Shown here piece by piece: positions 5,027-34,297 of a stretch of 56,371 nt of DNA (within the stretch, counting starts at the first letter, position 1; each line of letters opens with the position of its first letter). Origin of the DNA: Candidatus Pseudobutyricicoccus lothianensis (GTDB lineage: Bacteria; Bacillota; Clostridia; Oscillospirales; Butyricicoccaceae); contig CAJFRA010000012.1 of the NCBI GenBank assembly GCA_904419295.1, forward strand, positions 1 to 56,371. The letters run 5' to 3'. The notes below the pieces were generated by a model, which worked only from the letters and a program-made list of their open reading frames with translations, was not told the DNA's origin and ran no database searches. The position numbers and the translations under genes are program-made.

Positions 5027-5944
5027 TTGCATCAACATACAAAAGTTGGCATTCTAGGCGCCGGCCATGTGGGCTCCCATGTGGCTTACAGTTTGGCGGC
5101 CCAAGGCATCTGCGACCAGATCGTGCTGCTGGACATCGATGGGCAAAAAGCCAGCAGCCAGGCAGAAGACATCGCCGACGCCATCCCCAGCCTGCTCCAT
5201 CCTGTACAGGTGACGGCAGGCGGCTACGACGACATTACCGACGCCGATGTGGTGGTGTTGGCCGCCTGCGGCTCCGCCGTGGAGCAAGACCGGCTCCAGG
5301 AGCTGGAGGCCACTTGGGCCGTGGCAGAGGCCATTGCCCCCCAGTTGGTGGCCTGCGGTTTTTGCGGCATCGTAGTCTCCATTTCCAATCCCTGCGACAT
5401 CATCGCCCAGCGGTTTGCCCAGCGCACCGGCCTGCAAGTGATCGGCACAGGCACCGCCTTGGATTCCGCCCGCCTCCGCCGCAGGCTGGCACAATGGCTG
5501 GGCGTCGCCCCGCACAGCGTGTGCGCCTATATGCTGGGCGAACACGGCGACAGCCAAGTGGCTGCGCTGCACGCCGCTTCGGTGGCAGGCATCCCCCTCT
5601 TCCTTTGGCTGGAGCAGCACGGCTTGCCGCGGCAGGCGCTCGCCCCCTTGCTGGAGCAGACCGTCTACGCCGGCTGGCATGTGCTGCAGGGCAAAGGGTG
5701 CACGGAATTTGGCATCGGCGGGGCGGCAGCTGCCCTGATCCGGGCCATTCTGCGGGATGAAAAAGCGGTGCTCCCCTGCTCCACCCTGTTGCATGGGCAA
5801 TACGGCCAGCAGGGCGTCTATGCCAGCACCCCCTGCCGCATCGGCGCCCAGGGGGTCGAGGCTATCTTGGAGCTCCCCCTCAGCCCCCAGGAACAACAGG
5901 CCTTGGACCAGAGCTGCGCCATTCTGCGCAAACACTTGGGCTAA
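5027..5944 (+). CDS. L-lactate dehydrogenase-like NAD-dependent 2-hydroxyacid dehydrogenase
   Basis: A protein of 305 aa with the LDH/MDH fold. The Rossmann motif GAGHVGS is at the N-terminus, and an acidic residue ending beta-2 (LLDID) indicates NAD. SNPCDI, the substrate Arg in LDSARLRRRL and the catalytic His in GEHGDSQ are all present. The active-site loop reads ACGSAVEQDRLQELE. The catalytic Arg is kept, but the usual GAPQKPGETR loop is shortened and changed, so pyruvate may not be the best substrate; an L-2-hydroxyisocaproate-type enzyme is possible. A TTG start at 5027 is preferred because GAGGTGAT (5015-5022) is the ribosome site and overlaps the alternative GTG at 5018. Confidence 0.75.
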   Translation: MHQHTKVGILGAGHVGSHVAYSLAAQGICDQIVLLDIDGQKASSQAEDIADAIPSLLHPVQVTAGGYDDITDADVVVLAACGSAVEQDRLQELEATWAVAEAIAPQLVACGFCGIVVSISNPCDIIAQRFAQRTGLQVIGTGTALDSARLRRRLAQWLGVAPHSVCAYMLGEHGDSQVAALHAASVAGIPLFLWLEQHGLPRQALAPLLEQTVYAGWHVLQGKGCTEFGIGGAAAALIRAILRDEKAVLPCSTLLHGQYGQQGVYASTPCRIGAQGVEAILELPLSPQEQQALDQSCAILRKHLG

Positions 5945-5974
5945 GGCCGCCGCTTGGCGAACAGCACCACAACC

Positions 5975-6010
5975 AAAAGAGCGCCTCCGGCTGCCGGAAG
6001 CGCTCTTTTT
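5975..6010. terminator. Bidirectional terminator between convergent genes
   Basis: AAAAGAGCGCcTCCGG pairs with CCGGAaGCGCTCTTTT around a 2-3 base loop. It has A and T runs at both sides, so it can stop the LDH-like gene and the minus-strand deacetylase. Confidence 0.8.
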
Positions 6011-6823
6011 CTAATTTCCCTGGGCGGTCAGCTGATCCAGCGTCCCAAAGGTATACCCCTGCTCTTCCCACTTGGTCAGCAGTTCATCCATGATCTCCCC
6101 ATTGGTCTGGGATGTGACATGGAGCAATACAATGGCACCGGGATGGATGCGGGGCAGCAGCTTTTGATAGGCTTCCTCCTGGGTGGGCTGTTTGTCGGTG
6201 TACCAATCCACATAGGCCAGACTCCAAAAAATGGTCTGATACCCCAGCTCCTGGGCCATCTTCAAATTGCTCTCATTGAATTTGCCCTGGGGAGGCCGGT
6301 AATACTTGGGCATATCCTGGCCGGTGATCTGCCGGAACTTCTCTTCCACTGCGCCGATCTCCTGCTGGAAGCTGGCCATATCCCCGATCTTTGACATATC
6401 CGGGTGGTGGTAGGTGTGGTTGCCCACCAAGTGCCCTTCCTCCACCATGCGCTGCACCAGGTCGGGCGCTGTTTCCAAATAATTGCCCACCACAAAGAAG
6501 CAGGCTTTGGCATCGTGCTTTTTCAAGGCGTCCAATATGGCCGCCGTATTGCCGTTTTCAAAGCCGCAGTCAAAGGTGAGGTAGATGGTCTTTTGGTTGG
6601 CATCCCCCACGTAGTAGGAATCGAATTGTTTCAGATATTCGGCGCTGGCATTGCCCACCGGCGCTTCCCCTTCTTTTTGAAAGCTGAGGCCCCAGTTGGT
6701 GATCTCTGCGGCCGAGGCCACTGCCGGCTCTTCTCGTTGGAGCAGCAGCGACGCACACAGGGTAATGGCCATGACCCCCAGCAGGACGAATGCTGCGGGC
6801 CGTTGAAAAATACGTTTGCGCAA
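6011..6823 (-). CDS. Delta-lactam-biosynthetic polysaccharide deacetylase (PdaA-like)
   Basis: About 270 aa. A basic start and one hydrophobic segment (about residues 8-24) precede a NodB domain with YLTFDCGFENG, GNHTYHHPDM (HxxxH metal motif), YYRPPQGKFN and WSLAYVDW, then HPGAIVLLHV. This motif set is typical of PdaA, which makes muramic delta-lactam in the spore cortex of endospore formers. TTG at 6823 is chosen as start because AGGTGGG lies about eight bases upstream. An upstream in-frame ATG at 6883 lacks a good ribosome site, so this choice is uncertain by 20 codons. It is a single gene that converges on the LDH-like gene. Confidence 0.82.
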   Translation of the reverse strand: MRKRIFQRPAAFVLLGVMAITLCASLLLQREEPAVASAAEITNWGLSFQKEGEAPVGNASAEYLKQFDSYYVGDANQKTIYLTFDCGFENGNTAAILDALKKHDAKACFFVVGNYLETAPDLVQRMVEEGHLVGNHTYHHPDMSKIGDMASFQQEIGAVEEKFRQITGQDMPKYYRPPQGKFNESNLKMAQELGYQTIFWSLAYVDWYTDKQPTQEEAYQKLLPRIHPGAIVLLHVTSQTNGEIMDELLTKWEEQGYTFGTLDQLTAQGN

Positions 6824-6990: not shown

Positions 6991-8415
6991 ATGAAACTGT
7001 TTGGCGGCGTCAGAGGCCGCGGGTCTGCCACCGGCAGGCAGCGCCCTGCCGAGACCCATCCCAGCCGGGCGGAAGAGCCGGAGCAGCCCCTGCTGCGCAG
7101 CCAGGTCTCCCAGCAGCCTTTTGAGATCGATTGGGAATCGGTGTGGCAGCGGGAAGCCGCGGCCCGGCAGCAGGCCCCCTCTGCCGGCCTTTCCCCCCGC
7201 CCGGCGGCTCCTTCCGGCCAGCCCAAGGGCAAAAAGGCGAAACGGAAAAAGAAGAAGCGCCGCCTGGCCAAATGCCTGGTAGCTCTGGCCCTGTTGGCCG
7301 GGCTTTATTGTGTGGCCGTGTTTTCCAACATCCCTTTCATCGCCAAGTGGCGGGCCATCTACATCGAGACCGCCATGGGCACGATGAACCACCAATGGCT
7401 GGCCACCTATTTCATCCCCCCCTTTGTCATTGACCAGGTGATGGAGGGCCGGGACCAGCTGGAGGCCGATCAGGCAGGCTTGGCCAGCGACTGGGGCGAT
7501 TCGGGGGCGGCCGGCGGCGAGCAGGCCCTGACCTGGAAAAAGCTCCAGAAAGTCTTCGAGGAGGAGTATCCGGAGATCGACCAAGCTTCGCTCAAAGCCT
7601 ATCTGGAAAAGCAGGGAGACGCCGCCCTGGATGAGGACGGCTACCTGGTGATCGACGAAGCCGGGCTGGAAGAGGAGGGCACGGACATCGAGACCGTCCA
7701 TGGCGACCAAGTGCTGGCGCTGGATACTTTCAACGGCATCACCATCTGCAAAGTGAAGGGAGAGGGATTTGTGGGCCGCCTGGCCATCGTCAAAGACCCC
7801 TCCCAGGTGGGCGTTGCTTTGGCTCCCGGTTACGGCAGCGTGGGTGCCCGGGCCGCCGATATCGCCGAAGAGAGCGGCGCTGTGCTCGTGACCAATGCCA
7901 GCGGCTTTTACGACCCGGAAGGCCACGGAAACGGCGGCGTGGCCCATGGCCTGGTGGTCTCTGGCGGCCAACGGTACAACGATGCGGTGGCCGGTTCCTA
8001 TAAGACCATTGGCATCGACGAAAACAACCGGCTCTATGTGGGCAGCTACCAGCAGGGCCAATACCGGGATGCCGTGGAATTCAAGCCCGCCCTGATCGTC
8101 AACGGTGAAAAAGTGGTGGAAGGCAGCGCCGGCTGGGGGGTGCAGCCCCGCACAGCCATCGGCCAGACCGAATCCGGCTCCATCCTGCTGCTGGTGGTGG
8201 ATGGCCGGGCCCCGGGCTATTCCATCGGCTGTACGGTGGGCGATTGCGCAGACATCTTGGCCCGGTACGGCGCCGTGCAGGCCTGCAATCTGGATGGCGG
8301 CTCCTCCAGCATCATGGTCTACCAAGGCCGGGAGATCTCCCGCCCGTCGGCGGCGGATAAGACCCATGGCCGCCATCTGCCCAACGGCATCGCCGTCTAC
8401 CCCAAGAAAAAATAA
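6991..8415 (+). CDS. Phosphodiester glycosidase family protein (NAGPA domain), membrane-anchored
   Basis: A protein of 474 aa. It has an unusually long cytoplasmic tail of about 93 residues, ending in a lysine/arginine-rich stretch (79-92), then one membrane segment (about 94-112) and a large extracellular part. The C-terminal half (about 240-474) has the NAGPA/exopolysaccharide phosphodiester glycosidase features: TNASGFYDPEG, GWGVQPRTAIGQ, LLVVDGR and NLDGGSSS near the end. By family it cleaves N-acetylglucosamine-1-phosphodiesters or acts in exopolysaccharide or wall-polymer processing. AAGGAGGGGG lies directly upstream of the ATG at 6991. Proline/glutamine-rich low complexity fills residues 55-80. 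Confidence 0.78.
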   Translation: MKLFGGVRGRGSATGRQRPAETHPSRAEEPEQPLLRSQVSQQPFEIDWESVWQREAAARQQAPSAGLSPRPAAPSGQPKGKKAKRKKKKRRLAKCLVALALLAGLYCVAVFSNIPFIAKWRAIYIETAMGTMNHQWLATYFIPPFVIDQVMEGRDQLEADQAGLASDWGDSGAAGGEQALTWKKLQKVFEEEYPEIDQASLKAYLEKQGDAALDEDGYLVIDEAGLEEEGTDIETVHGDQVLALDTFNGITICKVKGEGFVGRLAIVKDPSQVGVALAPGYGSVGARAADIAEESGAVLVTNASGFYDPEGHGNGGVAHGLVVSGGQRYNDAVAGSYKTIGIDENNRLYVGSYQQGQYRDAVEFKPALIVNGEKVVEGSAGWGVQPRTAIGQTESGSILLLVVDGRAPGYSIGCTVGDCADILARYGAVQACNLDGGSSSIMVYQGREISRPSAADKTHGRHLPNGIAVYPKKK

Positions 8416-8431
8416 ACTGGACTCCCAACAG

Positions 8432-8468
8432 AAAAAAAGTGCCAAACTCCATTGGTTTGGCACTTTTT
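8432..8468. terminator. Bidirectional terminator
   Basis: AAAAAAAGTGCCAAAC and GGTTTGGCACTTTTT form a strong hairpin with a 6-base loop. A/T runs on both sides serve the two convergent genes that flank it. Confidence 0.85.
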
Positions 8469-8469
8469 C

Positions 8470-9897
<1,428 letters not shown>

Positions 9898-9918
9898 TGA
9901 AAAATCTCCCTTGACCAA

Positions 9919-10161
9919 TCAATTTCGATTCGATCCAGCCGGCGGTCCTCGCCGTTCCCCCTCATCGCCCAGCTCGTCGTGGACCTTTTCGCTCTGTGTT
10001 CCAAAATAGAAGGCGATGATCACCGAGAAGACCGTGAGAAAATCTTGGCTGGAAAGCCGGCCAGTCACGGCCAGATATGCAAATACAGCCGAAAGGACAA
10101 GTGTCACAATGCTTTTGACACACAAAAGATTGAGCAGCCGTTTCAAAAAGATGGAACGCAT
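9919..10161 (-). CDS. Small holin-like membrane protein
   Basis: An 80-aa protein with two hydrophobic segments (about 15-34 and 41-55) separated by a short polar turn, and a charged glycine/arginine-rich tail. The YLAVTG...FLTVF...IAFYFGTQS pattern resembles small membrane proteins found next to endolysins in Firmicutes prophages, so a holin or holin-derived role is possible. GGAGGG lies nine bases upstream of the ATG. Only the collagen-like gene follows; no endolysin or other phage gene is near, so phage origin is an inference. Confidence 0.6.
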   Translation of the reverse strand: MRSIFLKRLLNLLCVKSIVTLVLSAVFAYLAVTGRLSSQDFLTVFSVIIAFYFGTQSEKVHDELGDEGERRGPPAGSNRN

Positions 10162-10403
10162 GGGTCTGTTCCCTCCAATCTCCCATACGCTCCATTTTAT
10201 GTGCTCCTTTCTGCGGCTGTTCCCCTCCGTTTGGCTCTGAGCTGGGGGCGCCAAGGCCTTTCCCAGCCTACTGCCTGCCGGCACACGACTGCTATTTTTT
10301 TGATTTCGTCTAAAAAGTTTAATTTAAGGTAGAATAATTGTACATTGTGTGATACAATATGTTTGATTTGTTCAAAAATCGACACTGCAAAGGAGAGAAT
10401 GCA
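10162..10403. other. Divergent intergenic region
   Basis: Between the holin-like gene (left) and the PurF-like gene (right). An inverted repeat ATTGTA (10338-10343)/TACAAT (10353-10358) lies upstream of the PurF-like gene. No clear gene or RNA is seen. Confidence 0.4.
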
Positions 10404-11807
10404 ATGGGCGGATTATTTGGTGTGGCTTCGAAAAGCGATTGCGTGTTCGATCTGTTTTTCGGAACAGATTATCACTCCCACCTGGGCACACGGCGGGCCG
10501 GCATGGTGGTCTGTGGAGAAAACGGGTTCCAGCGTGCTATCCACAACATCGAAAATGCCCCTTTCCGTACAAAATTTGAGCGGGATTTAAACGAAATGGA
10601 GGGGCACCTGGGCATCGGCTGTATTTCCGACAATGAGCCCCAGCCGCTCATCGTCCGTTCCCACCTGGGCAACTTCGCCATCACCACCGTGGGGCGGATC
10701 AACAACATCGACGAACTGGTCAAGCAAGCCTTTGCGGTGGGTACCACCCACTTTTTGGAGATGAGCGAAGGCTTGATCAACCCCACCGAGCTGACGGCGG
10801 CGCTGATCAACAGCCAGGATTCCATCGAAGAGGGCATCCGCTATGCCCAAAGCGTCATCGATGGCTCCCTTTCTCTGTTGGTGCTCACCTCCAAGGGCAT
10901 CTACGCAGCCCGGGATAAAATGGGCCGTACCCCCATTGTCATAGGCAAAAAAGAAGGCGGGCACTGCGTCTCTTTTGAGTCTTTTGCTTATTTGAACCTG
11001 GGCTATGACACCTACAAGGAGCTGGGCCCGGGCGAGATCGATTTCGTCACCCCGGAATCGGTGGATGTGCTGATCCCGCCCCAAGAGGAAATGAAGATCT
11101 GCACATTCCTGTGGGTCTATTATGGCTATCCCTCCTCCACTTACGAAGGGATGAACGTGGAGCAGATGCGCTGCCACTGCGGCGACACGCTGGCCATGCG
11201 CGATCACATCGAGGCGGACAGTGTGGCCGGTGTGCCCGATTCCGGCACGGCCCATGCCATCGGCTATGCCAACCGCTCGGGCATCCCCTTTGCCCGCCCC
11301 TTCATCAAATACACCCCCACCTGGCCCCGCTCTTTCATGCCCCCCACCCAGAGCAAGCGCAACTTGATTGCCCGCATGAAGCTGATCCCGGTGGATGCGC
11401 TGATCCGGGACAAGCGGTTGATCCTCATCGACGACTCTTTGGTGCGGGGCACCCAGCTGCGGGAGACCACGGAATTTTTGTACCACAGCGGCGCCAAAGA
11501 AGTGCACATCCGTTTGGCTTGCCCACCCATCACCCGCGGCTGCAAATACCTGAATTTCTCCCGCTCCAAATCGGAACTGGACCTGATCTCCCGCCGCGTC
11601 ATCGCCCGGCTGGAAGGGGACAAGGCCGAAGAGATGCTGCCTGTTTACACAGACCCGGATACCCCCCAATACGAGACTATGGTGGAGCAGATCCGGCAGG
11701 AACTGAAATTCACCACGCTGAAATACCACCGGCTGGACGACATGATCGCTGCCACCGGCTTGCCTGCCTCCAAAGTCTGCACCTATTGCTGGACCGGCCG
11801 GGAATAA
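10404..11807 (+). CDS. PurF-like amidophosphoribosyltransferase paralogue without the N-terminal nucleophile
   Basis: A protein of 467 aa. The N-terminal half is a class II glutamine amidotransferase fold and the C-terminal half is a phosphoribosyltransferase with the PRPP motif LILIDDSLVRGTQ near residues 340-352. Normal PurF begins Met-Cys-Gly, with Cys2 becoming the catalytic nucleophile; here the sequence is MGGLFGVASK, so Cys2 is Gly. The rest of the domain (GTDYHSHLGTRRAG, RSHLGNFAITTVG, SFESFAY) is well kept. The ATG at 10404 has AGGAGAG seven bases upstream. It ends in CTYCWTGRE. It may use ammonia directly or be regulatory; true PurF should lie elsewhere. Confidence 0.8.
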   Translation: MGGLFGVASKSDCVFDLFFGTDYHSHLGTRRAGMVVCGENGFQRAIHNIENAPFRTKFERDLNEMEGHLGIGCISDNEPQPLIVRSHLGNFAITTVGRINNIDELVKQAFAVGTTHFLEMSEGLINPTELTAALINSQDSIEEGIRYAQSVIDGSLSLLVLTSKGIYAARDKMGRTPIVIGKKEGGHCVSFESFAYLNLGYDTYKELGPGEIDFVTPESVDVLIPPQEEMKICTFLWVYYGYPSSTYEGMNVEQMRCHCGDTLAMRDHIEADSVAGVPDSGTAHAIGYANRSGIPFARPFIKYTPTWPRSFMPPTQSKRNLIARMKLIPVDALIRDKRLILIDDSLVRGTQLRETTEFLYHSGAKEVHIRLACPPITRGCKYLNFSRSKSELDLISRRVIARLEGDKAEEMLPVYTDPDTPQYETMVEQIRQELKFTTLKYHRLDDMIAATGLPASKVCTYCWTGRE

Positions 11808-23107: not shown

Positions 23108-24499
23108 TTAGTTCTTGGACTTGATGTACTCATCGATGGACTTGGCCGCTGTTTTGCCAGCGCCCATGGCCAGGATGACAGTGGCAGCGCCGGTGACGGC
23201 GTCGCCGCCGGCATAAACGCCCTCAATGGAGGTCTTGCCGTTCTCGTCGGCCTCGATGCAGCCTTTTTTGTTGGTTGCCAGGCCTTCGGTGCTCTTCTTC
23301 AGGATGGGGTTGGGCGAAGTACCCAGCGCCATGATCACGCAATCCACATCCATCACATAGTTGGAGCCTTCTACCGGGATCGGGCGGCGGCGGCCGGAAG
23401 CGTCGGGCTCGCCCAGCTCCATCTTCACCACTTCCATACCGGTGACCCAGCCGTTTTCATCGCCCAGGATCTTCACCGGGTTGTTCAGCACCTTGAACTC
23501 GATGCCCTCTTCCATGGCGTGGTGGACTTCTTCCTTACGGGCGGGCAGCTCTTCCAGGCCGCGGCGATACACGATGGAAACATCGGCGCCCATGCGCTTG
23601 GCGCAGCGGGCGGCATCCATCGCCACGTTGCCGCCGCCGACCACGGCCACTTTCTTGGCGTGGAAGATCGGGGTGTCGTGCTTGCCGTCGTAAGCTTTCA
23701 TCAGGTTGATGCGGGTCAGATATTCGTTGGCGGAGAACACGCCGTTCAGGTTCTCGCCTTCGATGCCCATAAAGGAGGGCAGGCCGGCGCCTGTGCCGAT
23801 AAAGATGGCCTCATAGCCCTCTTCCTTCAGGTCTTCAATGGAGATGGATTTGCCCACCACCACGTTGGTCTGGATGTTGACGCCCATGGCCTCCAGGTTT
23901 TCCACTTCCTTGGCCACGATGGCCTTGGGCAGACGGAATTCGGGGATGCCGTAGATCAGCACGCCGCCGGCTGCATGGAAAGCTTCCAGCATGGTGACGT
24001 CGTAACCCATCTGCACCAGGTCAGAAGCGCAGGTCAGGCTGGCCGGGCCGGCGCCCAGCACTGCCACTTTATGGCCGTTGGAAGGCACTTTCTTGGGCTT
24101 TTCGGTGCTGTGCTCCATGTGGTAGTCGGCGCAGAAGCGCTCCAGGCGGCCAATGGCCACGCTCTCGCCCTTGATGCCCCGCACGCATTTGCCCTCGCAC
24201 TGGTTTTCCTGGGGGCAGACACGGCCGCAGATGGCGGGCAGTGTGGAAGTCTCCGCGATCTTCTGGTACCCTTCTTCAAACTTGCCCTCAGCCACCAGGG
24301 AGATGAACTGGGGGATCTGTACGTTGACCGGGCAGCCGCTGACACAGGGCATATTTTTGCAGTTCAGGCAGCGCTGCGCTTCGTTCACGGCCATCTCGGC
24401 GGTATAGCCCAGGGCCACTTCTTCAAAATTCTTATTTCTTACGTCAGGAGCCTGTTCGGGCATCTTGGTCTTTTCCAGGCTCATATTCTTATTTGCCAT
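23108..24499 (-). CDS. nfnB: NADH-dependent reduced ferredoxin:NADP+ oxidoreductase, large subunit (NfnB)
   Basis: A protein of 463 aa. N-terminal cysteine motifs CLNCKNMPC and CGRVCPQENQCEGKC bind two [4Fe-4S] clusters. Two dinucleotide folds follow: GAGPASLTCA for FAD near 160 and VVGGGNVAMDAARCAKR for NAD(P), and GDAVTGAATVILAMGAG closes the FAD site. This is the GltD-like fold. Because NfnA is encoded just upstream with an 11-base overlap, it is the electron-bifurcating NfnB subunit rather than a glutamate synthase small chain. The complex interconverts NADPH with NADH plus reduced ferredoxin in the cytoplasm of anaerobes. Confidence 0.85.
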   Translation of the reverse strand: MANKNMSLEKTKMPEQAPDVRNKNFEEVALGYTAEMAVNEAQRCLNCKNMPCVSGCPVNVQIPQFISLVAEGKFEEGYQKIAETSTLPAICGRVCPQENQCEGKCVRGIKGESVAIGRLERFCADYHMEHSTEKPKKVPSNGHKVAVLGAGPASLTCASDLVQMGYDVTMLEAFHAAGGVLIYGIPEFRLPKAIVAKEVENLEAMGVNIQTNVVVGKSISIEDLKEEGYEAIFIGTGAGLPSFMGIEGENLNGVFSANEYLTRINLMKAYDGKHDTPIFHAKKVAVVGGGNVAMDAARCAKRMGADVSIVYRRGLEELPARKEEVHHAMEEGIEFKVLNNPVKILGDENGWVTGMEVVKMELGEPDASGRRRPIPVEGSNYVMDVDCVIMALGTSPNPILKKSTEGLATNKKGCIEADENGKTSIEGVYAGGDAVTGAATVILAMGAGKTAAKSIDEYIKSKN

Positions 24500-25343
24500 T
24501 GTTCATACCCTCCATTCTGCATGCATGGTGCTCACGCGCTTCTTTCTCCTGGTCGAAATACATTCTGGAGCGGCGGATGGTCTCGTCGAAATCCACTTTG
24601 TGGCCGTCGAAATCCGGGCCATCCACGCATGCAAATTTAGTCTCGCCGTCTACAGTCAGGCGGCAGCCGCCGCACATGCCTGTGCCGTCGATCATGATCG
24701 GGTTCATGGAGACAATGGTGCGGATGTCGTGCTTTTTGGTCAGCAGGCAGACGAACTTCATCATCACCAGCGGGCCGATGGCGATGACAGCATCGTAATT
24801 CTCACCGGCGTTGATCAGTTCTTCCAGCTTGTTGGTCACAAGGCCCTGTTCTCCATAGGTGCCGTCGTCGGTCATCACGAAGAATTTATCGGAGCAGGCA
24901 CGCATCTCGTTTTCCAGCATCACGATGTCCTTGGAGCGGAAGCCCGCGATCATGTGCACGGTGCCGCCCGCCTCATGGATGGCCTTGGCCTGGGGCCAAG
25001 CGATGGCGCAGCCCAGACCGCCGCCGATGACAGCCACTTTCTTCCCCTTGAATTCCTCTGTCTCCGAGGGGTTGCCCAGCGGGCCCACAAAGTCGGCGAT
25101 GTACTCGCCTTCCTTCAGCTCCGCCAGCTCCATGGTGGTAGCGCCCACGGTCTGGAAAATGATCGTGATCACGCCCTTTTCTCTGTCGTAGCCGGCAATG
25201 GTCAGGGGGATGCGTTCGCCCATCTCATTGACGCGCAGGATGATGAACTGGCCGGGCAGGCACTTTTTGGCCACCATCGGCGCTTCCACATCCATCAGAA
25301 CGACATTGCTGCTCAGGTCTTCCCTACGCAGGATCTTGTACAT
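24489..25343 (-). CDS. nfnA: NADH-dependent reduced ferredoxin:NADP+ oxidoreductase, small subunit (NfnA)
   Basis: A protein of 284 aa of the PyrK/sulfide-dehydrogenase-like flavoprotein type. A FAD-binding barrel with RIPLTIAGYD, an NAD-binding fold with AVIGGGLGCA, and a C-terminal [2Fe-2S] motif in DGTGMCGGCRLTVDG followed by a further Cys fit NfnA. The ATG at 25343 is preferred because GAGGTGAT lies nine bases upstream, while TTG at 25349 is too close to it. Together with NfnB it balances NADPH, NADH and ferredoxin pools. Confidence 0.85.
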   Translation of the reverse strand: MYKILRREDLSSNVVLMDVEAPMVAKKCLPGQFIILRVNEMGERIPLTIAGYDREKGVITIIFQTVGATTMELAELKEGEYIADFVGPLGNPSETEEFKGKKVAVIGGGLGCAIAWPQAKAIHEAGGTVHMIAGFRSKDIVMLENEMRACSDKFFVMTDDGTYGEQGLVTNKLEELINAGENYDAVIAIGPLVMMKFVCLLTKKHDIRTIVSMNPIMIDGTGMCGGCRLTVDGETKFACVDGPDFDGHKVDFDETIRRSRMYFDQEKEAREHHACRMEGMNNGK

Positions 25344-25381
25344 TCTCAATCACCTCATCTATATTTTTGCCTGGTATCATT

Positions 25382-25420: not shown

Positions 25421-25643
25421 CTTCACGCGCCGCCGTTCCGCTTTAAACGGCAAATTTTATGAGGACCGGCCCTCCCCAGGAGAGCCGTCCCTCCTTATTT
25501 AATCGCTGCCTTTCCCGCCTGTAAAAAGCCGGGCCTGCACAGCAGGGTTCGGTCCGCCGGCAGGTCACGCCTTGCCGGCAGCCCACGGCGCGGCAGCGGC
25601 GCACACTTTGGACGCTTCCTGTCAAATATGGAGGCCCATGCCT
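25400..25643 (-). other. Hairpin-rich 3' region of the TnpB-like gene, candidate guide-RNA locus
   Basis: A gene-free stretch of about 240 bases. On the minus strand it holds a series of inverted repeats: GCCGGCA/TGCCGGC (about 25557-25581), GCCTGC-ACA-GCAGG (about 25533-25547), GGACGGCTCTCC-TGGG-GAGGGCCGGTCC (about 25464-25491) and GCCGTT/AACGGC (about 25432-25452). In TnpB loci the guide RNA is made from the 3' end of the gene and the DNA just beyond it, so this is where one would look. No transposon end was recognised. Confidence 0.35.
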
Positions 25644-27080
25644 TCATTCAAAGCGGAACCATCCGCCCGCAGGCGGCGGCTGGGCCAGTTTGTGCAAAAT
25701 GCTCTTTTGCCGGCTCGTCAGCGGTGTTTCCGGCTGTTCCAGCCGCTGCATCACCTGCTGTACGAACCACTGGCGGGCTTGGGGCCCTTCTTCCGTCTCC
25801 AGATGCAGGGCCAAGGCGGGGCAATCAAAGCACACTTTCCCTGCCCCATGGCTTTCCCGCACCCGCAGCTGGGTGCGCCCATACCGCTCCAGCGCCCGGG
25901 CCAAGTTGGCGGCCCCCAGCTGCTGCTTGGGCTGGACGTGCCCGCAGGATACACACAAAAACAGGCCGCCCACGCCCGCTGGAAGCCGGCGCAAAACACC
26001 GCAGGCCGGGCACCTCTGCCCGATCCCCTGGGGGCTCACCGCCACCACTGGCGGCAAACCGGCCCGCACCGCCCGCTGCCCCAGCAGCGCCATCAGCTTT
26101 TGGTACTCATGAGCCGGCATGGATGCACCGGCAGCGCCATCCGTCCAGCGGGAAAGGTCCGCCGCCACGATCTGGGCGGAAAGCCGGTCCGCCAATGTGC
26201 AGATCCGGTTGGCCAAGACCGGCAGGCCCTGGGGCCCCGGAGGCCGCTCCATTTGCTGGAACCGGTCCTGCCCTCCGCCGTGGATGCACAGGCACACACC
26301 GCTGCCGCTGCGGGCCACCCCCAGCGTACAGACAGGCGCACAGGGCGCCGGATCCCGATATTCCAGCCGCACACAAAGGTCATATTCTTTGCCCCGCCGG
26401 CGGAGCACCGCATTTTTGGGCAAAGCTACGCCCCGCTCCACCTCTTGCAGATGCTGCTTTTGCCATTTCCCCGCATCCAGGGGCAAAAGCAGATACCGCC
26501 GCCGCCCATGGCGGTCGCGGAGCATCTGCCCGGTGACGATATCTTGCAGATAGTCGTCGGATGCAGGGGCCTCTATGGCATTTTGCCGGTTGAGCAGGTA
26601 CAGTTTACAGTAATATCTTTTGCTGTTTTCGCTTTTGAGCAGAGAAAAGTCGCGGCCCGCAGCGTAACGACAAAAAGATACCGGCCTTAGCGTATCATAT
26701 TTTTGCAGATTTGTATAGATTTCTGAGCAGGAAAAATTGCCCGAATTCGAAAAAATCCGGCGCAGATCTTCCTCATCCGTCCGTGTGAGGGGATAATGGG
26801 CCCGATATCCCTTTTGGATGCGTGCCAAATAGCTGCGCAGCACCCCCTGCACCTCCTGCTGCAATGCATCTTTAAAGGGCTGGCAGCCAAAGGCATCCAC
26901 CACCGGCAGTACGCTGCGGGGGCACAGGTCTTTAGCGGCAGCGCCCGGCCGGCACAAGGGGCGGCAAGCCCGCAGCAAAGCCTCGAAAGCCTGGGCATAA
27001 CGGTCCATGGCGTCATCCATCAGCCGCTTTTTCGCCCCTGTGGGCCGCAGCAGCTTGATGGTGATGGTGCGGTACGACAT
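25644..27080 (-). CDS. TnpB-like protein with an apparently inactivated RuvC site
   Basis: A protein of 478 aa. The N-terminal domain starts TITIKLLRPTGAKKRLMDD, as in TnpB/Cas12-like proteins. The RuvC-like part shows LGVA at 253-256 where active proteins have an LGVD-type Asp. IVAADLS at 304-310 has Ala307 where the catalytic Glu is expected. A zinc ribbon is intact with CPAC (357-360) and CVSC (376-379), followed by a degenerate DxNAAxN motif (QQLGAANL, Gln386 in place of Asp). All three acidic positions therefore look lost while the fold is kept. A tail of about 78 residues with CFDC (417-420) is extra. The ATG at 27080 follows AAGGGGA, 11 bases after the pseudophosphatase stop. No TnpA lies nearby. 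A domesticated RNA-guided binding protein is the likeliest idea; a role in regulation is inference. Confidence 0.65.
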   Translation of the reverse strand: MSYRTITIKLLRPTGAKKRLMDDAMDRYAQAFEALLRACRPLCRPGAAAKDLCPRSVLPVVDAFGCQPFKDALQQEVQGVLRSYLARIQKGYRAHYPLTRTDEEDLRRIFSNSGNFSCSEIYTNLQKYDTLRPVSFCRYAAGRDFSLLKSENSKRYYCKLYLLNRQNAIEAPASDDYLQDIVTGQMLRDRHGRRRYLLLPLDAGKWQKQHLQEVERGVALPKNAVLRRRGKEYDLCVRLEYRDPAPCAPVCTLGVARSGSGVCLCIHGGGQDRFQQMERPPGPQGLPVLANRICTLADRLSAQIVAADLSRWTDGAAGASMPAHEYQKLMALLGQRAVRAGLPPVVAVSPQGIGQRCPACGVLRRLPAGVGGLFLCVSCGHVQPKQQLGAANLARALERYGRTQLRVRESHGAGKVCFDCPALALHLETEEGPQARQWFVQQVMQRLEQPETPLTSRQKSILHKLAQPPPAGGWFRFE

Positions 27081-27091
27081 AGCTTCCCCTT

Positions 27092-28126
27092 TCAGCAATA
27101 CTCGATCTCTACCCGCTTGCCCTGGAGGCTCAGCCGGTAGGACAGCTGGGCGGCCAGGCGGGCGCCCGGGCCCGCCTGGACCCCGGCCAAGATCCGCAGG
27201 CTGGTGCACTGCTCCAGAAGAGCCCAAAACTTGCCCGTCTGCTCCTTTTCCCCCGGCTCCCCGCCGGTTTGGGCCAGCAACTGCTGCAGTGCTTCCTCAT
27301 CGGGCCAGATCCACTCCACCGGGGCCTTTTCGCCCGCTGCCCCGCCGCTGTAGTGCTGCAGCATCTCAACGGCCTGCCGGCCCGCCACAGCCCGGATGCC
27401 CGAAAAAGCCAGGATGCCCCGGGCCCACGCCTCCGCCCCCTGGGAGGAGCGGGGCGCTCCCAACACCAGCAACAGGGGCAGGGGCTCTTTGGCCCGGCAG
27501 AAAAAAGCGGCACCCGGCGGGTCAGCACCCTGTTCCAGCCCCCGGCACGCGGCAAAGAACAGCTCTTTCATTTGGCCGGCGTTCTGGCTGCCGTCGTAGG
27601 CCTGGCGCAAAAAGGCCAGTGCCCCTTGCCGGCCCCAGCCCCCGGGTAGCGCGGCCCCGGCCCCGCAGCGGCCGATCCCCTGGGAAAAGCCGCAGCACAG
27701 TTCGCCCGGGCGGATCTGGTCTTCCCGCAGGGTGGCCACATGGCCGGCCAGCACCGCTTCGCCGCCCCAGGGGGTGCGGCACTTCCCCCTGCCCACCAGG
27801 GCGATGGCAGGCATCTGGTACTCCACCGACCGCAAGTGGCCCTGGCCGTCCATTTCCACCAGGGCAAAACCGTAGCCATCCCCTTCCATATTGCGGAGCA
27901 GGGCCTGGGCCGTGCCCTGCAGCGGCGCGCCGCCGGCCAACATCCCATAGGCCATGCTGGCGCAGGCAGCGGCTACGGTCTGGGCCGCCGTATCGTCCCC
28001 GGGGCAGGAGAGCAGCACGCTCCGCACCCGGCCCCTCCGGCGGCTGACCCGGCACACACAGCCCCCCAGCCCCTGGGAGCCCGGCGCCGCTTCTCCGCCG
28101 CTGTACTCCAAAAACAGCCGGCTCAT
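27092..28126 (-). CDS. Degenerate PP2C/SpoIIE-type phosphatase-like protein
   Basis: A protein of 344 aa. The N-terminal 160 residues match the outline of the PP2C-like protein that commonly follows PAS-containing [FeFe]-hydrogenases in Clostridia (HfsC-like). These include the SVLLS strand, the AGGAPLQGTAQALLR helix and a PGELCCGFSQGIG strand. The metal-binding Asp motifs are lost: the usual ADGxGxG is SCPGDD (40-45), and the usual SDG is SQG (148-150). It is probably catalytically inactive and may act as a scaffold. The C-terminal half is not recognisable. Its ATG overlaps the hydrogenase stop by four bases, so translation is coupled. Confidence 0.6.
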   Translation of the reverse strand: MSRLFLEYSGGEAAPGSQGLGGCVCRVSRRRGRVRSVLLSCPGDDTAAQTVAAACASMAYGMLAGGAPLQGTAQALLRNMEGDGYGFALVEMDGQGHLRSVEYQMPAIALVGRGKCRTPWGGEAVLAGHVATLREDQIRPGELCCGFSQGIGRCGAGAALPGGWGRQGALAFLRQAYDGSQNAGQMKELFFAACRGLEQGADPPGAAFFCRAKEPLPLLLVLGAPRSSQGAEAWARGILAFSGIRAVAGRQAVEMLQHYSGGAAGEKAPVEWIWPDEEALQQLLAQTGGEPGEKEQTGKFWALLEQCTSLRILAGVQAGPGARLAAQLSYRLSLQGKRVEIEYC

Positions 28127-29811
28127 CTGCCCTCCTCCTGGGCGATGGACCGCTCCATCCGCAGCAGCGCCGCCTTGGTCTCCCCGGTAGTCTCGCCCAG
28201 CAGCTGGGCCACTTGCTGGACCATGCGCATCTGCCGGTCCACCGCTTGCTGGGCCATCTGCAGGGTCTGGGCCCGCGCCCGCTCAAATTGGGTGCGGTTT
28301 TGTTCTTCCTGAGTCACATCCCGCAGCACCACGATCACATCGCCTGCAGGGGTCGCCACTGCCGAAAGGCGCACCTGCTTGTCGTTCTCCGCCAGCTGGC
28401 AGGGCACATCCAGCACAGCCCCTTGGGTCAGGTCGGGCAGGCCGCCTGCCAGGTATTGGCCCACATCCCGCTCGCAGCCCGCCCGGCCCCGGATGCCCAG
28501 CATGGCCCTGGCCTTGGGGTTGTACTCCACCAGCTTGCCCTCGGGAGACAGCAGCAAAATGGCATTGGGCGCATACTCCATCATCAGGTTGGAGGTGGAC
28601 TCCGCTTTTTCCCGCATATACGGCAGGCACATCTCCACATCCGCCTTGCCCTGCAGCACGGCAATGGCCTTGTCCCGGCAGGTGGGGTACCCGCAGGCGC
28701 CGCAATTGAGCCGGTCTTCCGGCGCTGTTTTGCCGGTGCGTGCCAAAACGGCGGCGATCTCCTCTTCGGTGGGCTGGGCAGCCCGGCGGCGGGCCGGCCT
28801 GTGCTGGGTCTTCAGCTCTACCTCCACCTGCTCCGTCAGGGGCGGCGGCGTTTCCGTCTTGCGCCGGGCAGCGGCCAGCAGCCGTTCTTTCATCACCAGC
28901 AGCGGCGTTCTGCCCGGGACGCCGGGCCCGTGGACACAGGAGCCTTCGCAGGCGCTCATCTCCAGAAAATAGCCTTTCAGCTGCCCCTGGCGGATGGAAT
29001 CCAGCACTTCCATACACCGCTCTACCCCGTCGGCCGCATAGCTTTTGTAGCCCCGGCGCTTTTGGGCGGGCACTGTGGCGATGATGCCGCCGGGGGAGGG
29101 ATAGAGCCGGCTGATGGTGTTGTGCATCTCCGCCGGCTGGGGGTCCGCCTGATCCAGGGGGATCCCCTCTTCTTCCAGCCAATCCCGAAGCTCGTCCAGC
29201 CGGAGCACGGCGTTGATGGCGTTCCCCTCCCGGGCCTCTTGGTATTTGGCGATGCAGGGGCCGATGAACACGGCCTTGATCCGGCTGCCGAACATGCTCT
29301 TCATCATACGGGCGTGGGCCACGGCGGGGGAGACCACCGGAGCCAGCTGGGGCGTCAGCTCCGGGTAGTATCTGTTCACCAGCCCCACCACGGCGGGGCA
29401 GCAGGTGGTGATGATGTTTTCCATCTGCCCTTGGGCCATCAGCCGGGCATATTCCTTGGAGACCTGGGTGGCGCCGATGGCCGTTTCCTCCGCCCCGGTG
29501 AAGCCCAGTTTTTTCAGCGCTGCCGAAAGCTGGGCAAAGGAGACGCCGGGAAAGGCCGCCTGGTAAGAAGGGGCTACGCTGGCATAGACCTTGAGCCCGG
29601 CAGCCAGCATGCGCTGCACGGCAGGCAGGTCGGAGACCGGCTGTGGAGCCCCCTGGGGGCAGACCCGCACACACCGGCCGCACAGGATGCAGTCTTCCGC
29701 CACCACCCGGGCCTGGTCTTCCGCAAAGGCGATGGCCTTGAGCGGGCAGGCGCGGATGCACTTGTAGCAGTTGCGGCAATTGGCCTTTTGCGTGGTGATG
29801 ACCGGTTCCAT
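28123..29811 (-). CDS. Sensory-type [FeFe]-hydrogenase with PAS domain (HfsB-like)
   Basis: A protein of 562 aa. Domains in order: two ferredoxin-type [4Fe-4S] sites (CRNCYKCIRACP and CILCGRCVRVCP); the H-cluster domain with TTCCP (135-139), GPCIAK (184-189) and EMSACEGSC (284-292); a further Fe-S motif with Cys370, 373, 378 and 395; a PAS domain (about 410-500); and a coiled helix. L2 and L3 differ from catalytic enzymes (GPC for MPC), as in group C/D sensory hydrogenases. It likely senses hydrogen or redox state in the cytoplasm and signals to its partners. The second ATG (29811) has AAAGGGG seven bases upstream; the first (29817) is too close. Confidence 0.85.
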   Translation of the reverse strand: MEPVITTQKANCRNCYKCIRACPLKAIAFAEDQARVVAEDCILCGRCVRVCPQGAPQPVSDLPAVQRMLAAGLKVYASVAPSYQAAFPGVSFAQLSAALKKLGFTGAEETAIGATQVSKEYARLMAQGQMENIITTCCPAVVGLVNRYYPELTPQLAPVVSPAVAHARMMKSMFGSRIKAVFIGPCIAKYQEAREGNAINAVLRLDELRDWLEEEGIPLDQADPQPAEMHNTISRLYPSPGGIIATVPAQKRRGYKSYAADGVERCMEVLDSIRQGQLKGYFLEMSACEGSCVHGPGVPGRTPLLVMKERLLAAARRKTETPPPLTEQVEVELKTQHRPARRRAAQPTEEEIAAVLARTGKTAPEDRLNCGACGYPTCRDKAIAVLQGKADVEMCLPYMREKAESTSNLMMEYAPNAILLLSPEGKLVEYNPKARAMLGIRGRAGCERDVGQYLAGGLPDLTQGAVLDVPCQLAENDKQVRLSAVATPAGDVIVVLRDVTQEEQNRTQFERARAQTLQMAQQAVDRQMRMVQQVAQLLGETTGETKAALLRMERSIAQEEGR

Positions 29812-29865
29812 TCCCATGCCCCTTTCTTGGTTTCTCTGCAGCAGCGGCGATGCTGCCTTGTGGCC

Positions 29866-33557: not shown

Positions 33558-34047
33558 CTATCTGCTTCTCCTCCAAGCAGCGACTGGCGGCCTGTCCCGC
33601 TGACCGCTGCTTGCTTTTCTGTCCTCTATCCATCCCTTTTAAACAACTGTATTGCCGGTTGGCAGCGGCGCCAGGTCTTCCCGGGCTGCGCCGCCATCCC
33701 TCTTCTCCCCGTATGGAAGCCGTTGCGCTATTATTAATCTGGTTTTTCTATTTTTCTATTTATACCAGATTAATTAGTTTTACTTTTGTTGATTCCCTGG
33801 ATTTCGACGGATTTTTTCTTGAATCCCTGGGGCGATCTCCGTATACTGATCTTGCGATGTGAGGAGCTCATCCCTCACAGTCAGCAATCCCATTTCCTAT
33901 TTTTTGTCTGCGGCTGGGCATCTGCGCCGGCTCTCTGCTCCATTTTCGATGTTGATCCGCATCGCCTCCCTAAATCCCTCTAGATCCTGCAGGGGGCGGG
34001 GCTGATCCCTTTCGGCGGCAGGCATCCTAATTCTCTCAACAATCACG

Positions 34048-34095
34048 GAAAACAGCGGCCAATGGTTTGTTCCATTGTCCGCTGTTTTCTTTTGC
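34048..34095 (+). terminator. Strong rho-independent terminator
   Basis: GAAAACAGCGGcCAATGG pairs with CCATTGtCCGCTGTTTTC around TTTGTT and is followed by TTTTGC. It insulates the next promoter from upstream transcription. Confidence 0.8.
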
Positions 34096-34195: not shown

Positions 34196-34297
34196 TTCGC
34201 TTTGGTAGAACGACTGCACCGCAGTGGCAGCGGCCTTTCCCCGGCGGAGCAGGCGCTGCGCGTCCCGGCACGATCTTGAACCAGGAGGCATTTGTTT

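Follow-up and report, generated by a model that had tools for sequence, protein, structure and literature searches.

A likely RNA-guided transcription factor linked to a hydrogen sensor in a clostridial three-gene operon

Introduction

What is the output of a predicted hydrogen-sensing gene pair whose operon continues into a gene for a TnpB-like protein? This question is raised by a stretch of 56,371 nucleotides from Candidatus Pseudobutyricicoccus lothianensis (Butyricicoccaceae, Clostridia; assembly GCA_904419295.1, contig CAJFRA010000012.1, positions 1 to 56,371), referred to below as the window. Three of its genes encode a predicted sensory [FeFe]-hydrogenase (HYD), a protein of the PP2C phosphatase type (PPX) and a TnpB-like protein (TLD). 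An initial annotation of this DNA had proposed that a TnpB-like protein was taken up into a hydrogen- or redox-responsive signaling unit, where it possibly serves in RNA-guided regulation. Sequence comparisons across related genomes support this proposal and point to what is likely an RNA-guided transcription factor linked to a hydrogen sensor, a variant of those derived from TnpB. An RNA-guided switch is likely because TLD adjoins the predicted hydrogen-sensor pair and because the tail of a conserved RNA element encoded behind TLD matches DNA upstream of hydrogenase genes in 13 of 19 genomes. The annotation had regarded the combination as undescribed, and literature searches of incomplete coverage likewise gave no description of it.

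The operon and its conservation

The operon and the elements behind it are as follows.

28123-29817, minus strand: HYD, [FeFe]-hydrogenase of group C-like (sensory) type; H-cluster cysteine motifs, Fer4 and FeS (PF04060) present, PAS matched weakly
27092-28126, minus strand: PPX, degenerate SpoIIE/PP2C-type (pseudo)phosphatase
25644-27080, minus strand: TLD, 478 aa, TnpB/Cas12f-like, RuvC triad inactivated, R257 invariant, zinc-ribbon cysteines intact
25505-25611, minus strand: RNA scaffold, hairpins and a GCTGC...GCAGC closing helix/pseudoknot
25493-25504, minus strand: putative guide GATTAAATAAGG, directly 3' of GCAGC
25461-25493, minus strand: terminator-like hairpin with a poor T tract, sharing the last guide base, read by eye

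The coordinates agree with the arrangement first described, in which HYD and PPX share an ATGA overlap (28123-28126) and a gap of 11 bases separates PPX from TLD. HYD matches Fe_hyd_lg_C (E 4.3e-49), Fer4 and FeS in Pfam and contains the H-cluster motifs TTCCP, GPC and ACEGSC; together with a C-terminal PAS region, which is matched only weakly (PAS_8, 0.0019, below the cut-off), these cysteine motifs would place it in group C. In the PPX of the window, the PP2C acid motifs seen in relatives are missing, LADG being replaced by LSCP and SDG by SQG, with GDDTT lost, so that HYD here has no adjacent PP2C/SpoIIE partner with intact acid motifs. The pseudophosphatase of the initial annotation is thus found in the window but is not a general trait: the first acid motif is present in PPX of 16 of 19 loci and PGDDTT in 15, and degenerate forms occur in the window, L002 and L047, the last also cut short at 221 aa.

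In tblastn comparisons, HYD and then PPX lie upstream of TLD in all 19 loci, which comprise the window and 18 fetched loci (L002-L008, L035, L037, L038 and L040-L047), all found by TLD sequence; L048, whose contig is too short to show the upstream genes, is outside this count. PPX and TLD are directly adjacent, with no intervening gene, in 16 of the 19. The third gene is thus a retained part of the operon rather than one missing from it in relatives, and its position behind HYD and PPX is more than chance. In the other three loci (L003, L004 and L035), an adhE-like gene lies between PPX and TLD, which ties the operon to alcohol metabolism.

The window's assembly contains one copy of TLD. A protein search returned 11 proteins, its own cluster included, and a scan of the genome collection gave seven TLD loci; these search sets overlap (L003 is G552, L004 is G498, L007 is G515, L008 is G595 and L002 is G053). 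Full-length TLD is present in two of 87 genomes of the window's family (five at E 0.001, three of these being partial and weak), and TLD was found in four of 394 genomes of the order, one as a fragment, and in 15 of 391 genomes of the class. Weak TnpB matches in G032, G073 and G085, which cover the C-terminal RuvC/zinc-ribbon part only, were excluded from the family count. Viral contigs encoded no TLD relative; one stretch matched a pattern.

A predicted nuclease-dead TnpB-like protein and the RNA element behind it

From sequence, TLD is predicted to be a nuclease-dead TnpB/Cas12f-like protein. Its structure prediction is confident, and the predicted fold resembles Cas12f/TnpB, as the initial annotation had supposed. 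Alone, the protein has a single match of useful E-value, to the TNB domain PF07282 (24.3 bits, below the gathering threshold of 26.3), and a profile of 18 TLD relatives matches Cas12f chains with a best E of 9e-14. The claimed loss of the catalytic acids is borne out by the alignment, in which Ala256, Ala307 and Gln386 of the window's TLD occupy the three RuvC catalytic columns rather than sitting beside shifted acids. Among 29 family proteins, that of the window included, the first Asp is lost in all, the Glu is kept in 11 and the third residue, Asp, in seven, and none has a complete triad. The zinc-ribbon cysteines are intact, again as claimed.

Directly behind TLD, an RNA element of about 80-125 nt that ends in a short putative guide is encoded in 19 of 19 loci. 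It consists, in this order, of GGTGC-TTTT-GCTGCC-GCACC or a variant, a hairpin of the CTTAC-AGA-GTAAG type and AAAAGTGCAGC or a variant, followed by an unpaired segment of some 8-13 bases, as counted by eye; most loci then have a terminator-like hairpin. Over 18 distinct rows, pairing is 100% in the GCTGC-GCAGC pseudoknot and in the third helix, with double changes in two of five and four of five pairs, respectively. The covariation score over these rows, whose sequences are related, is 0.354 against 0.207 for shuffled alignments (0 of 500). Hairpin 1 is 65% paired in the register used, a value that may be understated because Christensenella and Intestinimonas are shifted by 1-3 nt (alignment A5). 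Single-sequence folds are better than shuffles in four of six RNAs (z -2.1 to -3.3), and the window's RNA scores 67 bits in the RNA model (25493-25611). Rfam gave no match in the window, and six loci gave two tRNAs only. By position and covariation, an adjacent structured guide RNA of the kind that accompanies TldR proteins therefore appears to be present in all 19 loci.

Behind the RNA in the window follows a gene pair at 23108-25349, with Pfam matches to DHODB_Fe-S_bind and Fer4_20/Pyr_redox_2, which we take to be NfnAB-like; in L002, the gene after the RNA (9679-10539) has a start near-identical to that of this pair.

Guide-like sites upstream of hydrogenase genes

If the RNA tail acts as a guide, which DNA would it address? 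Guide-like sites are found at hydrogenase promoters in 13 of 19 genomes, one of them (L040) with only three matching nucleotides; the four Christensenella-type genomes show none, and the sites of the window and L047 are weak. At least eight leading guide bases are matched outside the RNA itself in four of the 19 loci. The matches in L002 (10 nt), L004 (10 nt) and L035 (8 nt) are preceded by AAAAACC-R and lie upstream of hydrogenase genes; L002 has two more, one being the other arm of the same inverted repeat, and L047 has one of at least eight bases that lacks the motif. The pattern AAAACCNTATCT occurs 12 times in 313,819 bases of 17 loci, always on the operon strand and against an expectation of 0.26, a count that leaves out the window and L002 because of their other guides and includes L004 and L035, from which the motif was discovered. 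Three scrambled forms have no copy in the same loci.

The clearest comparison with non-carriers concerns hydC, the gene for the NuoE-like subunit, for which 30 loci were returned from 116 genomes with a match. Within 500 bp upstream of hydC, CCNTATCT is present in six of seven TLD carriers and in none of 22 non-carriers (Fisher p 1.5e-5, kinship ignored), the control consisting of the 22 loci with upstream sequence, without L116, which starts at a contig edge. The one carrier lacking it is Christensenella-type. In three carriers (L098, L099 and L101) the site lies on another contig than TLD, and the genome of L008 has two hydC copies, each with an 8-nt match TATCTAAT.

Some candidate sites were rejected. 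A search for Christensenella targets by ACCNTATCTGWC gave nine places in three of four genomes, none of which resembles a hydrogenase promoter and seven of which lie within a long stop-to-stop frame. The site copies of L066 and L067 resemble, in our reading, codons of a conserved frame.

Position of the sites and direction of regulation

A total of 24 sites could be placed relative to a promoter: 14 strict AAAACCNTATCT copies at hydrogenase promoters and 10 recognized by a looser motif, by position or by their own guide (L002, L003 proximal, L040, L043, L045, L047, L098, L099, L101 and the window). Measured from the first guide-matching base to the -35 box of the best sigma-A-like promoter, the distance is 23 bp in four (HYD proximal), 41-42 bp in six (hydC of one family) and 51-54 bp in the remaining 14. 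All 14 strict copies fit these spacing classes, as opposed to one of 27 other copies returned as loci (Fisher p 4e-10, kinship ignored).

Every site thus begins between 23 and 54 bp ahead of the -35 box and clear of the core promoter, a geometry that does not indicate repression by promoter covering, and for this reason we do not file the module as a TldR. Of the TldR likeness drawn in the initial annotation, the TnpB-like fold and the dead RuvC stand, and an RNA element can be added, whereas the repressor role appears not to fit, since the geometry suggests activation. We favor activation because the core promoter is left free by the sites, whose distances are separated by near-helical steps, the phasing being suggestive only, since it rests on three distance classes. 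On these positions and their roughly helical steps, it seems unlikely to us that the TLD-RNA complex binds the same sites as a repressor, in the manner of TldRs, or denies another activator access to the upstream region. In favor of such repression, known TldRs repress according to the accessible part of PMC13418256, and an increase in hydrogenase activity and adhE followed deletion of the HydS relative hfsB in an organism unchecked for TLD, as the available text of PMC5707799 reports.

The sole other copy with a fitting distance, L057 (1501-1950, G502:C1), combines a 52-bp spacing with a Rex-like box and a small gene of unknown function and is a possible further target. Rex-like boxes, by our reading of the sequence, also lie near several hydrogenase promoters. 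In L047, a AAAACCATATTATATAA site lies at the right spacing ahead of an alcohol-dehydrogenase-like gene but was rejected, its match being only 4 nt long.

Proposed mechanism

Class I activators bind at characteristic spacings upstream of the -35 box. In the mechanism that we propose, the predicted sensory hydrogenase HYD would sense H2 with the PP2C-type PPX as its partner, and TLD would bind the structured RNA encoded just behind its gene. A guide of roughly 6-10 nt would pair with DNA beside an ACC-type motif, placing the complex upstream of the -35 box, where it would likely activate RNA polymerase as class I activators do. HYD and PPX may gate TLD by H2, through contact or (de)phosphorylation, and the expression of hydrogenase, perhaps of alcohol dehydrogenase too, would then follow H2. 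That the operon is a hydrogen-sensing chain with an RNA-guided transcription factor as its output we regard as reasonably probable. In a fuller statement, hydrogenase promoters would be turned on by a TnpB-derived activator that is programmed by a guide RNA, can be redirected by changing that guide and is under the control of an H2-sensing [FeFe]-hydrogenase, the whole chain being conserved in seven families of one class; on this, our judgment is evenly divided.

The gating step has an alternative of its own, in which TLD and its RNA regulate hydrogenase promoters independently of HYD and PPX, and the operon provides co-expression only. Neither a contact nor a phosphosite between the pair and TLD is evidenced, and HYD often occurs without TLD: at E 1e-90 it is found in 46 of 148 class genomes, of which eight carry TLD and 38 do not. 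We nevertheless judge this alternative rather unlikely, given the pair's constant place upstream of TLD (19 of 19 loci) and the direct adjacency of PPX in 16. In a tree of 42 HYD proteins (seven duplicates dropped), TLD is explained by one change, with weak support (59/71). Behind the HYD-PPX pair, gene content differs in four non-carrier loci (L156, L157, L158 and L159; gene names partly our reading), with a hydrogenase-like gene and adhE in L156 and a response-regulator-like gene further on in L157. The window's genome itself has a second sensory-hydrogenase/PP2C pair on another contig (L160, G000:C10:44000-58000), with a HYD-like gene at 8281-9963 (minus strand), a PP2C-like gene at 7109-8266 (minus strand), a further hydrogenase-like match at 5743-6624 and no TLD match.

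Evidence against the proposal and the state of the module in the window

Several observations weigh against the proposed chain. The direction of regulation is read from geometry only, and contact of HYD or PPX with TLD is our inference only. The AAAACC motif was derived from the matches in L002, L004 and L035, which form its discovery set, and was then searched. Many guide matches are short (5 nt in L003 and L038, 4 in L047, 3 in L040), and the four Christensenella-type loci have no motif-plus-guide site upstream of hydC. Summed over 14 genomes, the best guide-site match comes to 92 nt, where permutation gives a mean of 65.9 (0 of 20,000), and over seven representatives to 53 against 29 (25 of 20,000), yet this test is supportive rather than independent, because the guide prefix was used in choosing the sites and because of the kinship of the genomes. 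The single-sequence folds of the window's RNA (z -0.77) and of L040 (-0.87) are no better than shuffles. The RNA model matches 78 of 391 class genomes at E 0.1 or better, and its matches of at least 63 bits fall in 15 genomes, precisely those that carry TLD; all of these served in training and score by construction, so that the information lies in the absence of strong matches from the other 376. L048, outside the training set, scores 75 bits, L047 of the same family having been inside. The next best matches, of 31, 30 and 26 bits (G627, G687 and G668), were rejected, as they lie inside coding frames with no TLD nearby.

Furthermore, AAAACCNTATCT shows no genome-wide excess, with 111 copies in 17 genomes against 147 of its reverse, and the signal of the sites is therefore one of position, not number. 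This, and a TATCT core common to the sites in many genomes, would suit a reading in which the upstream sites are those of a different DNA-binding factor, the RNA serving only to attenuate or stabilize the operon transcript. We consider this very improbable: none of the 376 genomes without TLD has a strong RNA match, guide and site vary together (the first base is T in L002 and G in the window, for both), and matches reach 8-10 nt in L002, L004, L035 and L008.

The window itself is a weak case for an RNA-guided activator of hydrogenase promoters. Its only candidate target, a weak one, and the promoter are as follows.

33733-33774, no strand given: candidate target, an 11-bp inverted repeat with ACCA-GATTAA on both strands, guide-like match
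33819-33847, plus strand: TTGAAT-17-TATACT, promoter-like, 51 bp past the first base of the guide-like match on the plus strand

The match at this target is 6 nt long, and no hydrogenase gene lies behind it. AAAACCA-GATTAA at 33734-33746 (minus strand) is the only AAAACCNKATTAA in the assembly; G053 also has one, upstream of hydC, and each of the two sites is part of an inverted repeat whose A/T-rich spacer is 20 nt long. An inverted repeat alone is not rare, since a search for 11-bp repeats with spacers of 18-22 gave five lines in the window, two of them overlapping.

These features raise the possibility that the window's module may be decaying or retargeted. Decay, with the element at 33,733 as a relic of a lost HydABC promoter, is conceivable though somewhat doubtful. 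The degenerate PP2C protein speaks for it, as do an assembly with no hydC match at E 1e-25 and only partial, weak hydB matches, and a first Pfam-supported frame (YcxB-like, at 34292) about 440 bp past the promoter; the intact 478-aa TLD frame, a TLD protein cluster of 59 member sequences and the conserved closing helix of the RNA speak against it. Between the promoter-like sequence and a strong hairpin at 34048-34094, about 240 bases (33848-34094) contain no clear gene and may represent a small RNA or a relic.

Comparison with known systems

If the proposal is true, it identifies an output for the HydS-PP2C pair of several lineages and adds a natural RNA-guided activator coupled to a metabolic signal; exact guides, sites and spacings are now testable, and the module would offer a compact natural scaffold for programmable activation.

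TldRs associated with oppF are among the known nuclease-dead relatives of TnpB. The accessible part of PMC13418256 describes TldRs as nuclease-dead, TnpB-like repressors associated with flagellin and csrA and using a 6-nt seed. By this description, on which our comparison is based, the TLD module shares the TnpB/Cas12-like protein with inactivated RuvC, a neighboring putative guide RNA and the link to a non-transposon gene; a short candidate seed match near a promoter is seen in 13 of 19 genomes. It differs in its partners, which are a hydrogen-sensor pair, and in its sites, which lie upstream of the core promoter.

With Cas12f and the IS605 TnpB nucleases, TLD has the fold and zinc ribbon in common, whereas its catalytic triad is never complete. 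The dCas12f-sigma systems of RNA-guided transcription (PDB titles 9n9c and 9n9m) would resemble it in pairing an RNA with a nuclease-dead Cas12f-like protein and in acting at a set distance upstream of transcription, but no sigma factor gene is among the three genes of the TLD operon, and a -35/-10 promoter is present at its sites.

The HYD-PPX pair has its counterpart in the group C HydS/HfsB type, which in the available text of PMC6776011, PMC5707799 and PMC11837493 is the same combination of hydrogenase-PAS protein and phosphatase. In these accounts, as far as they were accessible, deletion of hfsA or hfsB raises alcohol dehydrogenase activity and adhE (PMC5707799), and the sensory hydrogenase of R. 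albus occurs with a phosphatase and adhE (PMC6776011). Their accessible parts identify no transcription factor in which the chain ends; in the operon described here, TLD would take that place.
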